This document shows positions 2,083-7,305 of a stretch of DNA of 64,000 nt, piece by piece. The translations under genes were made by a program, and so were the position numbers. The stretch is from Desulfobulbaceae bacterium (GTDB lineage: Bacteria > Desulfobacterota > Desulfobulbia > Desulfobulbales > Desulfocapsaceae). The stretch's first letter is position 1. Each line of letters starts with the position of its first letter. The stretch spans positions 1 through 64,000 of the forward strand of contig QKIH01000044.1 of NCBI GenBank assembly GCA_003249645.1. Reading direction: 5' to 3'. The notes beneath the pieces were generated by a model, which was given only the letters and a program-made list of their open reading frames with translations, had not been told where the DNA came from and made no database searches.

Positions 2083-2541
2083 ATGAAAATTTTGACACCT
2101 TTGAGAACCGGTCTCATCGTTGCCCTGGGAAGTTTACTTCTCGCAACTGCAGCATTTTGCGCTGATTATGTCACTGTGAAAAATGACGACGTCAATGTCC
2201 GAAGCGGCCCTTCAACTGATTCTCCGGTCAAGATGGAAGTTTTTAAAGGATACCCCTTCCAGGTGATGTCAAAAGAAGGCAACTGGCTCAAGGTAACTGA
2301 TTTTGAAGGCGATACCGGATGGATTCACGAATCGCTTGTCAGCAACGGTGATACCGTGATCGTTAATAGCAACAAAGTCAACATGAGAGAGTCTACCAGC
2401 ACCAAATCTGCCGTTATTGCTGAAGTTGAGCGTGGAGTTGTTTTTACCCAGATCGGCAAAGAAGGTGATTGGATCAAGGTTCGTCACAGCGGCGGCACCG
2501 TTGGCTGGATCTATTCCAAACTTGTTTGGCCGAAACTCTAG
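2083..2541 (+). CDS. Exported protein with two bacterial SH3 domains
   Basis: The ORF begins at 2002, but residue 28 (ATG at 2083) starts a clear signal peptide: MKILTPLRTG, a hydrophobic core, then a cleavage site at about AAFCA|DYV. The 2002 start lies right at the predicted transcription start and is unlikely. The mature part is two SH3b-type repeats (about 27-85 and 90-150). Each has the pattern VNVRSGPSTDSPV / VNMRESTSTKSAV followed by a buried-Trp segment (GNWLKV, GDWIKV) and a GW(I) ending. SH3b domains usually bind peptidoglycan peptides, so a periplasmic wall-associated role is likely. There is no catalytic domain, so the precise role is unknown. Its TAG stop overlaps the stop of the convergent helicase gene in the tetramer CTAG. 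Confidence 0.8.
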   Translation: MKILTPLRTGLIVALGSLLLATAAFCADYVTVKNDDVNVRSGPSTDSPVKMEVFKGYPFQVMSKEGNWLKVTDFEGDTGWIHESLVSNGDTVIVNSNKVNMRESTSTKSAVIAEVERGVVFTQIGKEGDWIKVRHSGGTVGWIYSKLVWPKL

Positions 2542-5510
2542 GCTCTACGAAGCAGATTGTCTATAGACTTGTCCAGGCAAAGCGGGAGACGGACTGTTTT
2601 TCCCGCTTTGTTTGTGAATAAAAAGTGTTCATATTCCAAGCCGAAAAGGAACAACTCTTTCGTCAATTCAACATCTTGCTGACAATAGTGTTGTAATTTT
2701 CTGAATTCTTTTTCTTTATACCATTTCAAGGCCTGTAGCCCATCACCAGTTTTTTTTCTATCCAGTGTTGCCTCGGCAACCCGATCCAGACTGAGACGGT
2801 AGCCCAGGTGATTTGAAATCTCTTCAAGAAGATCAAGGCTTTTAATTGCTGATAAATCTATATCGGTATAAGCAGAAAGCACCCTGTTATCAAAACGTTT
2901 ATTATTAAAACCTACCACCACGTCCGCGTTCAGCAAATGCTCAATCAAGGCAGCGATCTCACCTTCCAGGAATGTCATATAGCCGTCAAGCCTGCTGTCG
3001 TAGATAACAGCAAGTGAAACTCGCATCTTTTCTGCATTATTCCAGCCACCCACCTCTTCTGCACTTAATTGTGTTTCAAGGTCAAATACGCAATAATGTT
3101 CAGGTAAAGCATCAATGCCTTTAGGGTAAGATGACTTTCTATTTTGCCCTTTAGAAAGTTTTTCCAGCAAAGCCGGCATCTGCCACTCATTGTCCTGTGG
3201 CCGGGAGGATATGATGAGCTCAAGCAGGGACAGGCAGCCTATCTTATCAATCGGTCGGTTGCCGGAACCGCATTTAGGAGAATGAACGCAGCTGGGGCAG
3301 CCGTTTTCGCACTCACATTGTTCTATCACTCTTTTGCATTCGAGCAGTATTTCATTTATCTTTTCATAAGCATCGCGACACAAGCCCACACCACCGTCAT
3401 GCCCGTCATAAATAAATATTGTCGCAAGTTCAGTCTGTTCATGAACCGGACATGAAATACCACCGATGTCATTCCTGTCGCAGAGCACAAACAAAGGAAA
3501 CAGGGAGATCATGACATGTTCCAGTGCGTGAATTGCTCCCATAAAATGCTGTTTTTCTCCTTCTATCTTCTGTCTGATCCATTCTGGCAATACCAGCCAG
3601 ATCCCATCTGTTTCGATGATCTGCTCGGGAAGGTCAAGAGCTATAGTGTTAATTGTTTTTCGTGTCGACGCATGTATTTTCTGATACCCGGTAACCTGCT
3701 CGGTAACTCGCACCTGACCTTCATACACTGAAACAGAAAAGCACTCCTTCCCACCTTTAGTCTCAATAATCTCAGTTTTTTTATTTGACAGTGCTCTGGT
3801 GTAGTGTGTTTTGCCCCCCTGCCCTACAACAACCTCAGCAGCCTCAAAATCAAGTTTTTCCACGGAGTAAATCTCGCTTCGATGAAGATATATTGCTCCT
3901 TCATGACACTCCTTCATCGCTCTGCTGCTGTCTATTTCTCCAAGAATTACTCCTGATTCTGAATTAATTATTGTCAGTTGACTGGAATCTCCCCTAAGAT
4001 TAAAGAGCCGTTGAGGATATTTTCTACTGGCAAAAAAATCTTTTCCATCGGCAGATTGATGAAGAACTCCATCATTCACCATTTCCCTTACGCAGGACTC
4101 GACCTCGGGTGGTGCAGATATAATCTCTGCTGCTGTCAGGGTAAGTTCTGCTGCCGCACAGTGCAGGTGTTTAGCCATGATAGAACTGTTGAAATGATTT
4201 AAGACAGCAGACTCAACGTCTCTTTTGAAAAATGCCTCCGGATTTCGCATGAAATACTGATCCAGTGCATCCTCTGCGCCAATCATTACGATTGCCGATT
4301 CCTGCTGGCCGCGTCCTACCCTTCCGCCTCTTTGCCATGAAGCCATGATGGACCCCGGGTAGCCGACAAGAATGCAAAGATCAAGATCACCGATATCTAT
4401 ACCGAGTTCCAGTGCAGAAGTTGATATAACGCCGTAAAGTTCGCCTGATGCGAGCTTTTTCTCGATTTCCCTTCGTTCTTCAACTGTAAAGCCGGCCCGG
4501 TAAGAACTCAACTTTCCGGCAAACTCCCGCAGTCTTGGTTTGGTCCACATGGTAATGAGCTCTGTAAGCTTGCGCGATTGGGTATAAACGATGGTTCTTA
4601 AAGAACGTTTCATCGCAGCCTCAAGAAGCTGACTTGCCACATGGGCTGCACTGTCCCATGGATTGAGAAAGAGCATATGCTTTACAGGTTGAGGAGCTCC
4701 AGAATCCGTAATTACGGCAACTTCCTCGCCAAGCAGTTCACGCCCGAGCTGTTCAGGATTTCCAACTGTCGCTGAGAGCATGATGAATTGCGGGGTGGTA
4801 TCATAATAGGCTGCGATTCTTTTCAGCCTGCTTATGGCCCAACTCATATGAGAGCCGAACACGCCTCTGTAGGTGTGAACTTCATCAATAATTATGTATC
4901 TGAGTTTTTTGAAAAAACGACTCCAGTTGTCATGGAAAGGAAGAATTGAGAGATGCAGCATGTCGGGAGTTGTAATCATGATGCCCGGCGGGTTGTCACG
5001 CAGTTTTCTCCTCCTGTACGTGCTTGTGTCACCGTCATAGATCGCAGCGATTTCGTTATCGCGTTTTTCTGAATCCCTTTGACAAAATAAATACATCTCC
5101 TCTATTTTTTTCAGTTGGTCATTGGCAAGGGCCTTTAGCGGAAACATATACAGTGCGTGACCCTGCGGGTCTTTTGCCAGGCTGTCAATGACAGGAAGAT
5201 TATACATCATGCTTTTACCTGAAGCGGTTGGTGTTGCCGCCAGCAGATGTTTCCCCTGTTTAACATGATGCAGGGCTTCAAGCTGGTGAGAATAGAGCTT
5301 GTTTATGCGTTTCTGGTGCAGGTAAGCCTTTAACCCTGAAGATAGGGAATCAGGTATTTCGCCGTAGCTGCCTGCTCTTTTTTGACTTGCTCTGTGACAG
5401 ACAACCTGAGGCCCGAACTTTTCAGAACCTTCCAGAGCCTGCAGATACTCTGTTATGTTTCCTCTGTTTCCAGAAGTTTTTTCTACATGTTGTTTTTCGG
5501 AAGAGTACAT
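2538..5510 (-). CDS. DEAD/DEAH helicase MrfA fused to a MrfB/YprB-like DEDD exonuclease
   Basis: The N-terminal two thirds is a superfamily 2 helicase of the MrfA (YprA, DUF1998) type. It has Walker A ATPTASGKS (about 92-100), DEVH (209-212), motif III SAT, and QRGGRVGR as motif VI. A four-cysteine zinc cluster (CECENGCPSC...C, about 732-750) belongs to the MrfA Zn-binding (MZB) region. After this comes a domain (about 800-960) with YCVFDLETQ, GFNNKRFDNR and HYCQQDVELT. These are the DxE, (N)xxxFD and YxxxD motifs of the DEDD/RNase H-like exonucleases, as in B. subtilis YprB/MrfB. In B. subtilis MrfA and MrfB are separate neighbouring proteins that repair mitomycin C damage; here they are one 990-aa chain. 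Divergent from the downstream tyrA gene. Confidence 0.85.
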   Translation of the reverse strand: MYSSEKQHVEKTSGNRGNITEYLQALEGSEKFGPQVVCHRASQKRAGSYGEIPDSLSSGLKAYLHQKRINKLYSHQLEALHHVKQGKHLLAATPTASGKSMMYNLPVIDSLAKDPQGHALYMFPLKALANDQLKKIEEMYLFCQRDSEKRDNEIAAIYDGDTSTYRRRKLRDNPPGIMITTPDMLHLSILPFHDNWSRFFKKLRYIIIDEVHTYRGVFGSHMSWAISRLKRIAAYYDTTPQFIMLSATVGNPEQLGRELLGEEVAVITDSGAPQPVKHMLFLNPWDSAAHVASQLLEAAMKRSLRTIVYTQSRKLTELITMWTKPRLREFAGKLSSYRAGFTVEERREIEKKLASGELYGVISTSALELGIDIGDLDLCILVGYPGSIMASWQRGGRVGRGQQESAIVMIGAEDALDQYFMRNPEAFFKRDVESAVLNHFNSSIMAKHLHCAAAELTLTAAEIISAPPEVESCVREMVNDGVLHQSADGKDFFASRKYPQRLFNLRGDSSQLTIINSESGVILGEIDSSRAMKECHEGAIYLHRSEIYSVEKLDFEAAEVVVGQGGKTHYTRALSNKKTEIIETKGGKECFSVSVYEGQVRVTEQVTGYQKIHASTRKTINTIALDLPEQIIETDGIWLVLPEWIRQKIEGEKQHFMGAIHALEHVMISLFPLFVLCDRNDIGGISCPVHEQTELATIFIYDGHDGGVGLCRDAYEKINEILLECKRVIEQCECENGCPSCVHSPKCGSGNRPIDKIGCLSLLELIISSRPQDNEWQMPALLEKLSKGQNRKSSYPKGIDALPEHYCVFDLETQLSAEEVGGWNNAEKMRVSLAVIYDSRLDGYMTFLEGEIAALIEHLLNADVVVGFNNKRFDNRVLSAYTDIDLSAIKSLDLLEEISNHLGYRLSLDRVAEATLDRKKTGDGLQALKWYKEKEFRKLQHYCQQDVELTKELFLFGLEYEHFLFTNKAGKTVRLPLCLDKSIDNLLRRA

Positions 5511-5604: not shown

Positions 5605-7305
5605 ATGGTAAAGATAGCTACACTGGGGCCTCAAGGCAGCGACAGCATTAGCGCAGCAGGCCAATATTCACCAGATGCCGAAATTTTTCTTTTCAACCAG
5701 ATCTCAGAGGTTTTGAGCGCCCTGGCTTCAGGGAAAGCGGATAAGGCCCTGGTACCTGTATATAATACACGAGGCGGTGAGGTAAAAGAATATTTTCGTC
5801 TGCTTGAAAATGTCGAAAATGAATACTGGATTGACAACATCGTTTTACCGATTCATCTTTCTCTCGGTGTGGTTGCCTTAGAGACGCATAAGCCGGAATT
5901 AATAAAAACTATCGTCGGCAGACAGGCAGTTTTCAACCAGTGTCGTGAATATATATCGACAAATTTTCCGGATGTAACACTTATATCAGTAGGCAGTCTA
6001 GCTGAAAAAATAAAAGCTGCCATCAGCAGCAGTGATCACAGTTATGCCTTTATTGACACAGAAGAGTCCCTTAAACTCGGAGGGCTTGAAATCGCTGAGC
6101 GAGAGGTGGTTTCTCATAACCGCACCCGTTTTGCCGTGCTCGGAAAAAAGCTCCCCCCTTCTACCGGCTACGATGCAACGGCAGTAATCACCAAGCCTCT
6201 CAACGACAGGGTCGGCATGCTCGTTGATATTTTGAATGAATTTACCCGTCGCGGAGTCAATATTCTCGATCTGCGTTCTGAAAACGATATCAAAACCCAA
6301 AAACTTCAGATTTATCTTGAAGCTGAGGGACATATTGAAGATCTGCCCTTGAGATCAGCTCTTGAAACCATAGAAAAACGTGTCATTCAGGAAAGAGATT
6401 CTATAAAATTGCTTGGTTCATTTCCGCGAATCGACATGAGGGTGAAACAGATAAAGAATATCGGGTTCATCGGTTCAGGAGCAATGAGCCAGTGGTTTGC
6501 AGTTCGACTTGCCAATGAGGGCTATAAAACGGTCATTACAGGACGATCTTCAGAAATCTCTCCGGAGGAGATGGTTAAAGATGTTGATATCGTCTGTATT
6601 TGTGTGCCGATTTCGGTAACGGCAGAGACTATAAGGCAGTATGGTCCACTTTTGCATGAAGGCCAGGCACTTATTCTTCTGGCCGGTGAATCAGAAAACA
6701 CCTTACAAACAGCCATGGATTTTACCCACTCAGGTGTCGAACTGATGTTGGTCCACAATTTATGGGGCCCCCAGGCAGATACCATGAAAGATAAAAACGT
6801 CTCAGTGGTCAGGACGTCAAGGAGCGGTGCTTTCTGCAGCGAATTTGAGGCATTTCTTTATAAGCATGGGGCGGCAATATATCATGACAGCGCAAACAAG
6901 CACGACTTGCTCATGGGTGTTGGGCAGAAACTGCCTACCCTTATTTCAGTTGCCCTGGCAAAAACCCTTAAAGAGCACGGGGTGGATTGTGCCGATATTT
7001 CAAGTCATTCAACCTTGACCTCCCTGTATGGCGTCCTGTCTATGGTTCGGGTACATAATCAGAATCCGAGAACCTATGCAGAAATCATGTCAACTACAGG
7101 GGATGGCCGTAAAATCGTCCGCAGTTTTGTAAAAAACATTACCAATCTCATGGAAATTGCTGAAGACAGGGATATTCAGGAGTTATGTTCGATTATGGAA
7201 TCCAGTAAAGAGTTCATGAGTGAAAAGTTCAGAGAAAATAACATGCGGCAGGCGAAAGCTGTTGATGCTATCTTAAGCGACAATGGCGTAAAAGATTTGT
7301 ATTAA
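5605..7305 (+). CDS. tyrA: Prephenate dehydratase-like / ACT / prephenate dehydrogenase fusion
   Basis: Three domains are visible. Residues 3-180 resemble prephenate dehydratase (LGPQGSDS start, NRTRFAVLG at 172-180 containing the catalytic-type Thr). Residues about 190-265 form an ACT regulatory domain. From about 284 comes a TyrA prephenate dehydrogenase with a Rossmann loop (GFIGSGAMS), catalytic-type His384 in HNLWGP and a helical C-terminus. TyrA makes 4-hydroxyphenylpyruvate for tyrosine. The dehydratase part departs from the family at key places: PVYNTRGG replaces the usual P(V/I)ENSxxG, and the ACT ESRP motif reads LRSEN. It may therefore be a regulatory relic rather than an active PheA. 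Length 566 aa. No clear Shine-Dalgarno precedes the ATG. Confidence 0.8.
   Translation: MVKIATLGPQGSDSISAAGQYSPDAEIFLFNQISEVLSALASGKADKALVPVYNTRGGEVKEYFRLLENVENEYWIDNIVLPIHLSLGVVALETHKPELIKTIVGRQAVFNQCREYISTNFPDVTLISVGSLAEKIKAAISSSDHSYAFIDTEESLKLGGLEIAEREVVSHNRTRFAVLGKKLPPSTGYDATAVITKPLNDRVGMLVDILNEFTRRGVNILDLRSENDIKTQKLQIYLEAEGHIEDLPLRSALETIEKRVIQERDSIKLLGSFPRIDMRVKQIKNIGFIGSGAMSQWFAVRLANEGYKTVITGRSSEISPEEMVKDVDIVCICVPISVTAETIRQYGPLLHEGQALILLAGESENTLQTAMDFTHSGVELMLVHNLWGPQADTMKDKNVSVVRTSRSGAFCSEFEAFLYKHGAAIYHDSANKHDLLMGVGQKLPTLISVALAKTLKEHGVDCADISSHSTLTSLYGVLSMVRVHNQNPRTYAEIMSTTGDGRKIVRSFVKNITNLMEIAEDRDIQELCSIMESSKEFMSEKFRENNMRQAKAVDAILSDNGVKDLY

Follow-up and report, generated by a model that had tools for sequence, protein, structure and literature searches.

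The locus and its protein

This analysis concerns a 64,000-nucleotide stretch of contig QKIH01000044.1 from a Desulfobulbaceae bacterium (GCA_003249645.1), hereafter the window, and a gene on its minus strand that encodes a helicase and an exonuclease in a single polypeptide. The gene spans positions 2538-5510, with an ATG start at 5510 and its stop codon at 2538-2540, and forms one uninterrupted open reading frame (ORF) of 990 residues without internal stop or frameshift. It is the sole close copy in the genome assembly. A sequence-only reading of the window had described it as the Bacillus subtilis repair proteins MrfA and MrfB fused, with helicase motifs, a four-Cys zinc cluster and a DEDD nuclease in one frame. 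That all three elements share one ORF is borne out by Pfam and by invariant residues, as described below; the naming of the two halves fares less well.

Conservation was read from an alignment of 56 fused homologues, with one wrong-frame ORF row (L036) left out. The motor opens with a RecA1 or DEAD domain (residues 74-253, positions 4752-5291, minus strand as for all parts of the gene; PF00270, 6e-32) carrying the motifs ATPTASGK, DEVH and SAT, followed by a RecA2 or Helicase_C domain (residues 296-400, positions 4311-4625; PF00271, 1e-12) with motif VI QRGGRVGR. The Walker A lysine K99, D209 and E210, S246 of SAT, R397 and R400 are all invariant. A winged-helix-like region (residues 441-507, positions 3990-4190) gives a weak match to PF22982 WHD_HRQ1 (22 bits, below the cut-off). 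Beyond it lies the MZB or DUF1998 zinc domain, labeled "MrfA Zn-binding" (residues 663-742, positions 3285-3524), which PF09369 matches at 4e-22. The cysteine cluster CECENGCPSCVHSPKCGSGNRPIDK (residues 732-756, positions 3243-3317) has the form seen in the SftH clade and holds five invariant cysteines (732, 734, 738, 741, and 747) instead of the four first counted. With its superfamily 2 (SF2) RecA1-RecA2 core, MZB/DUF1998 domain and cysteine cluster, the motor belongs to the YprA/DUF1998 family.

A variable linker (residues 757-805, positions 3096-3242) without conserved positions leads to the nuclease, and the spacing from K756 to D810 ranges from 49 to 74 residues across homologues. The exonuclease domain itself (residues 806-976, positions 2583-3095) has three recognizable motifs. 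Motif I merges with a family signature, D810-L-E812-T...A-E-V-G821-G822-W823 (positions 3042-3083), in which D, E, G, G, and W are unvarying in 56/56 proteins. Motif II, reported earlier as FNNKRFD, is present in the fuller form GFNNKRFD (positions 2889-2912), of which only G-F-N and F-D are invariant (F868, N869, F873, and the catalytic D874). Motif III, Y942-C-Q-Q-D946 (positions 2673-2687), has the tyrosine that marks a DEDDy enzyme, with Y942 and D946 kept in 55/56 homologues and a gap in the remaining one. H941 was considered as the catalytic histidine of a DEDDh enzyme and rejected, as it varies among homologues and Y942 does not.

Failure of profile searches to connect the tail with DEDD exonucleases had been set beforehand as the result that would refute the fusion. 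The tail came through this check: when the last ~220 residues were searched alone they matched RNase_H_2 (PF13482) at 26.1-26.8 bits, above the gathering score of 22, with weaker Pfam matches to DNA_pol_A_exo1 and DNA_pol_B_exo2, and PF13482 was matched at E <= 1 by 54/54 homologous tail domains scanned. In an AlphaFold2 (AF2) model the predicted local distance difference test (pLDDT) score is 96 for the nuclease domain, which takes the exonuclease fold of PolB and T7 Pol, 55-77 in mid-linker and 87 for the whole protein, with a predicted template modeling (pTM) score of 0.86. The predicted domain arrangement is thus well defined overall. The conserved D810, E812, D874, D946, and Y942, together with the matching fold, place the tail among the DEDD (DnaQ-like) enzymes. 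Because the catalytic residues of both halves are unvarying in the 56 fused proteins, selection is, as far as the alignment can indicate, keeping both the helicase and the nuclease activity.

Distribution in Desulfobacterota

A protein of ~1000 residues with 48-61% identity over its full length is found in most of 58 genomes from the same family or order. Across 297 sampled Desulfobacterota genomes, where tallies were counted from the match listing and the fused figure is a lower bound, helicase and tail share one ORF in at least 71; about 35 show nothing but an MrfA-type helicase of ~35% identity, and in a handful a close relative of the helicase occurs minus the tail. A scan of a named-genome collection considered the best 80 of at least 547 relatives, for which the informative titles are all Desulfobacterota (including Desulfobulbales and Desulfobacterales), and found the one-ORF fusion at 77 of these 80 loci. 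Of the three exceptions, two place the domain at the end of a contig and the third is seemingly frame-split. Cultured relatives that carry a fused locus include Desulforhopalus singaporensis and Desulfobulbus alkaliphilus. No fused protein was present among matches in the plasmid collection. In Desulfobacterota the fused form is the norm, and the expectation that a polypeptide joining a helicase to a DEDD exonuclease would be widely conserved in this phylum, with its active sites intact, has held.

Placement of the helicase

Had orthologues of MrfA and MrfB truly been fused here, a single chain would be expected to carry out the mitomycin C repair of the Bacillus pair. The helicase half offers this explanation some encouragement, since in addition to the shared MZB domain, no solved protein comes closer than MrfA, which scores 523 bits with its domains in matching order across residues 18-744 and is also the top structural match of the full-length AF2 model (6znp, E 4e-69). 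The helicase tree speaks against it, however, with Bacillus MrfA grouping with the ~35%-identical Desulfobacterota helicases (100/100), several of which have an MrfB-like gene directly downstream, and the fused helicases lying outside, on a sister branch that makes up the SftH/TIGR03817 side of the YprA tree. The fused group instead joins the tail-less relatives and two further helicases (L181 and L183) and, more loosely, helicases from haloarchaea (two) and an actinobacterium (one). This split is mirrored by the zinc motif, which is GCPSCVGP in the MrfA clade and GCPSCVHSPKCGxxNxPxDK in the clade on the fused side, and its extension CPSC-x-x-SPKCGxxNxPxDK is common to the fused helicase and a Tsukamurella (actinobacterial) plasmid helicase. 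The best NCBIfam model is TIGR03817 (DECH_helic) at 687.5 bits over residues 42-767, below the cut-off of 874; we take SftH to belong to this group. Because of the tree, the split in the zinc motif and a best model that nevertheless falls below its cut-off, the motor is best described from its sequence as a YprA-family, SftH-like helicase that is neither MrfA nor a full TIGR03817 member.

Other pairings of YprA-family helicases with nucleases occur elsewhere. True MrfA-MrfB neighbors are found in other Desulfobacterota (L184:3005-6783 and L188:1797-5379, also L185, L186, L187, and L190). At L181:2-2670 and L183:276-4057 the helicase gene overlaps the reading frame of an RNase_H_2-type exonuclease just upstream. 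On a Haloprofundus halobius plasmid (L197:1938-6107) the gene after that of a YprA-family helicase encodes an RNase H-like protein whose N-terminal part is helix-hairpin-helix-like and which contains the DEDDy-like motif YCEAD.

Placement of the nuclease

In Pfam the tail best matches RNase_H_2, the family of MrfB, which is again what an MrfA/MrfB fusion would predict. Two profiles were compared with MrfB, one of the fused tails (A1) and one of a stand-alone RNase_H_2 family from the same genome (A2). The A1 search did not retrieve MrfB (8un9) at E <= 1, whereas A2 retrieved it at 9e-5, and in profile-profile comparison A2 matched the MrfB set with 97.8% probability (E 1e-12), A1 matched it with 55% (E 1e-4) and A1 matched A2 with 87%. 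At the position four before the last Asp the fused tail has Tyr942 and MrfB has His (DEDDh), although this residue alone is not decisive, as the stand-alone family of the same genome also has Tyr there. Six neighbor-type MrfBs within Desulfobacterota carry HNxxD (DEDDh) and DTETTGL; the fused tail reads DLET..GGW and YCxxD. The position of the MrfB leucine wedge (first Asp +6) is Ser in 45/56 fused homologues and Leu in 4/56. There was no Pfam match to a tetratricopeptide repeat (TPR) in the fused protein, which stops 44 residues past D946; the L184 MrfB has such a match.

The tail's relatives were found among phages. The best matches of the modeled nuclease in the PDB are B-family and T7 DNA polymerase structures with their proofreading exonuclease domains, and in BFVD it matches a 214-residue viral protein at a TM-score of 0.76. 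A scan of viral contigs (IMG/VR) gave 32 relatives, the top ones ~200-residue stand-alone proteins and the lower ones longer and polymerase-like. The phage protein of L199 is 41% identical to the fused tail over 162 residues, scores 237 bits against the fused profile and has the same motifs (DLET..VGGW, GFN..FD, and YCxxDV). The phage relatives match PHROG 403, "DNA polymerase exonuclease subunit." Two more relatives (L231 and L232) lie on stretches with phage-like genes from the same bacterial order; a tblastn search of the tail against INPHARED phages gave no match. The L199 gene (L199:4932-5522, IMGVR_UViG_3300004369_000262) encodes a GGW DEDDy exonuclease of 196-204 residues and sits upstream of a gp32-like single-stranded DNA (ssDNA)-binding gene with one gene between; its contig bears T4-like genes including this gp32-like protein, which was identified by eye.

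Two nuclease trees set the fused tails, along with the phage proteins, apart from MrfB and A2 (MrfB with A2 at 99/89), with branches that are long at this depth; the second tree unites the fused and phage group at 97/93. An approximately unbiased (AU) test rejected a clade of fused tails with MrfB (p = 0.025). The fused nuclease therefore seems, from profiles and trees, to be a distinct DEDDy lineage that groups with stand-alone phage exonucleases, and transfer between phage and bacterium may have run in either direction. The tail was rejected as an MrfB orthologue on the combined basis of Tyr942, the missing TPR and leucine wedge, the profiles, the trees and the AU test, and an orthologous MrfA/MrfB fusion acting in the same pathway is accordingly an unlikely account of the protein as a whole. 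What stands of the original proposal is a YprA-family helicase joined to a DEDD exonuclease; neither half is MrfA or MrfB.

The genome does encode a separate, MrfB-like RNase_H_2 protein of 327 residues (L061:4933-5916; G000:C110:24935-25915, minus strand), which is not beside a helicase, scores 131 bits against PF13482 and, in a PDB search, matches MrfB at 4e-5. This is the stand-alone family, present in 37/58 relatives, with an invariant Tyr where MrfB has His258. Among 57 relatives, 28 have both the fused and the stand-alone gene, eight only the fused, eight only the stand-alone and 13 neither (Fisher p 0.004, uncorrected for phylogeny). The idea that the L061 protein and the fused gene form a fixed pair was rejected, since the two are not adjacent and co-occur only moderately.

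That the protein is an RNA-processing helicase-nuclease, with an RNA exonuclease for its tail, is very unlikely. SF2 cores can work on RNA and DEDDy nucleases include the RNases RNase D and NrnC (PMC11194089), but the nearest relatives of this tail are the phage proteins matching PHROG 403, the matching structures are DNA polymerases with exonuclease domains, and the substrates of MrfA and SftH are DNA.

Gene neighborhood

The fused gene lies at a stable chromosomal site between two unrelated housekeeping genes on the plus strand. A bacterial SH3-domain protein (positions 2002-2541; PF06347 / PF08239) converges on it, its final 4 bases overlapping the end of the fused gene, and adjoins it in this orientation at about 42/73 homologous loci. 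On the other side, and divergent, is a prephenate dehydratase-ACT-prephenate dehydrogenase protein (positions 5605-7305; PF00800, PF20463, and a weak ACT match), which is found upstream and divergent at 48/73 loci. This 566-residue protein combines the dehydratase, an ACT-like region and the dehydrogenase dimerization domain, and its match to the dehydrogenase nucleotide-binding domain is weak. Across the 73 loci no same-strand partner adjoining the fused gene is conserved, there is no separate exonuclease gene beside it in the window, and a promoter/terminator scan upstream found nothing. Because the SH3 and prephenate neighbors each recur at over half of the homologous loci, the neighborhood argues for a vertically inherited housekeeping gene rather than a mobile defense gene. 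An antiphage role, as a YprA-family helicase plus nuclease in the manner of Druantia, ARMADA, or TALON (the last with a C-terminal RNase H fold), is highly improbable: one preprint describes a large YprA-family defense branch with C-terminal nucleases (PMC12458937) and the PADLOC models BrxHI, DruE, and DrmA match the helicase part, but these matches fall mainly on the helicase core, as expected of related SF2 helicases, and make up no whole system, the locus is a conserved housekeeping one in many relatives with no defense genes among the families recurring in its 6-kb flanks, and the RNase H domains of TALON are described as inactivated whereas the fused nuclease site is intact. A defense-system origin was rejected, as gene context gives it no support.

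Proposed function

We consider the protein to be, probably, a bifunctional DNA-processing enzyme, a 3'-5' translocase and 3'-5' exonuclease for housekeeping DNA repair that was assembled apart from MrfAB. Its ATPase activity, polarity and exonuclease activity are predicted from its families, and a role in lesion or crosslink repair is suggested by analogy with MrfAB and WRN. DEDD nucleases digest 3'-5', both SftH and MrfA are reported to move 3'-5' on ssDNA (PMC12458937), and the chemistry described for MrfB (PMC11194089) lends further support. The YprA/SftH-type motor (RecA1-RecA2, winged helix, oligonucleotide-binding (OB)/connector, and zinc domain) would load on ssDNA, move 3' to 5' and open the duplex. 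The tethered DEDDy domain would then trim 3' ends in the 3' to 5' direction by two-metal catalysis through D810, E812, D874, and D946, Y942 being the fifth residue of the active site. Thanks to its variable linker, the nuclease could get to a 3' end that the motor has opened up. With both halves at work, a 3' tail or gap would be the starting point for unwinding, and the 3' end would be trimmed.

With more reserve, we suggest that, in an event separate from the origin of MrfAB, an SftH-type repair helicase may have gained a proofreading exonuclease of phage type, and that the single-chain enzyme may stand in for MrfAB across much of Desulfobacterota. This tentative idea of a stand-in stems from the observation that among the genomes listed from the 297, the fused enzyme and an MrfA-type helicase were never seen together. 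If true, the helicase-DEDD pairing arose more than once, as MrfA with MrfB downstream, as the fused DEDDy protein, as the haloarchaeal DEDDy neighbor and as an upstream exonuclease in two other lineages.

Several observations weigh against a bifunctional repair enzyme assembled apart from MrfAB. The whole gene is often absent, with 165/297 sampled genomes giving no match at 1e-30, and the predicted function is for that reason apparently dispensable in many lineages. Close relatives without the nuclease exist (G013, 775 residues, and the f57/f72 lineages), as does a genome (G280) with the nuclease and no helicase, and therefore the two presumed activities can be separated. The motor is ~36% identical to MrfA and the overall fold is common to both, hence part of the difference from MrfA may be one of degree. 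In G280 the GGW exonuclease is a stand-alone protein of 219 residues directly downstream of an HD-domain (dGTPase-like) gene (L178:3613-4269, 4273-5436), with no helicase on the stretch.

Comparison with known systems

Fusions of YprA and YprB have already been mentioned in a preprint (Bell et al., 2025; PMC12458937), the main text of which calls the nuclease an MrfB/YprB homologue. The DEDDy/GGW lineage, its phage relatives and its distribution are not described in that main text. The preprint does note that complementation requires alleles that are closely related. Judged against it, what seems new is that the nuclease fused in Desulfobacterota forms a DEDDy lineage of its own, has relatives in phages and is carried on a non-MrfA helicase, with true MrfAB pairs elsewhere in the phylum. 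The sequence-only reading had taken the fusion as direct evidence for MrfA and MrfB working as one unit. This does not follow, because the helicase and nuclease are other lineages and MrfA-MrfB neighbors proper occur in other members of the phylum; the fused enzyme is a parallel case of the same helicase-exonuclease coupling as MrfAB. The interaction of MrfB with MrfA is stated to remain unknown (PMC11194089), and a single-chain helicase-exonuclease makes the coupling of a YprA-family motor to a 3'-5' exonuclease directly testable. If the nuclease is truly another lineage, repeated independent pairing of YprA helicases and DEDD exonucleases is stronger evidence of functional coupling than a single fusion between orthologues would be. 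These findings also caution against transferring the annotation "MrfAB," and with it a mitomycin C role, to fused proteins.

Among known helicases, MrfA (YprA) of Bacillus subtilis (6znp/6znq/6zns) resembles the fused protein in domain order, MZB domain and fold. It belongs to another clade, the zinc motif of the fused protein extends into HSPKCGxxNxPxDK, which adds a fifth Cys, and MrfA has no nuclease of its own, its partner MrfB being separate. The SftH (Mycobacterium smegmatis)/TIGR03817 side is alike in being the best NCBIfam model and in the CPSCVxSPKCGxxNxPxDK motif of the Tsukamurella helicase, which however lacks a fused nuclease; the tree did not include SftH of M. smegmatis itself. 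For the nuclease, MrfB (YprB, 8un9) shares the DEDD superfamily, RNase_H_2 and the N and FD of motif II, but is DEDDh with a Leu113 wedge and a TPR tail, whereas the fused domain is DEDDy, lacks both a wedge at D+6 and a TPR, and has an invariant GGW. The phage DEDDy exonucleases (PHROG 403-like, L199) differ in having no helicase fusion and in lying near phage replication and structural genes. A further parallel is the human RecQ helicase WRN, whose single chain likewise unites a helicase with a DEDD exonuclease. WRN has 3'-5' polarity and is of the DEDDy type. Its exonuclease domain is listed in the DnaQ family (PMC11194089). WRN has a RecQ-family motor and an N-terminal exonuclease, and the resemblance is one of logic, not of descent.

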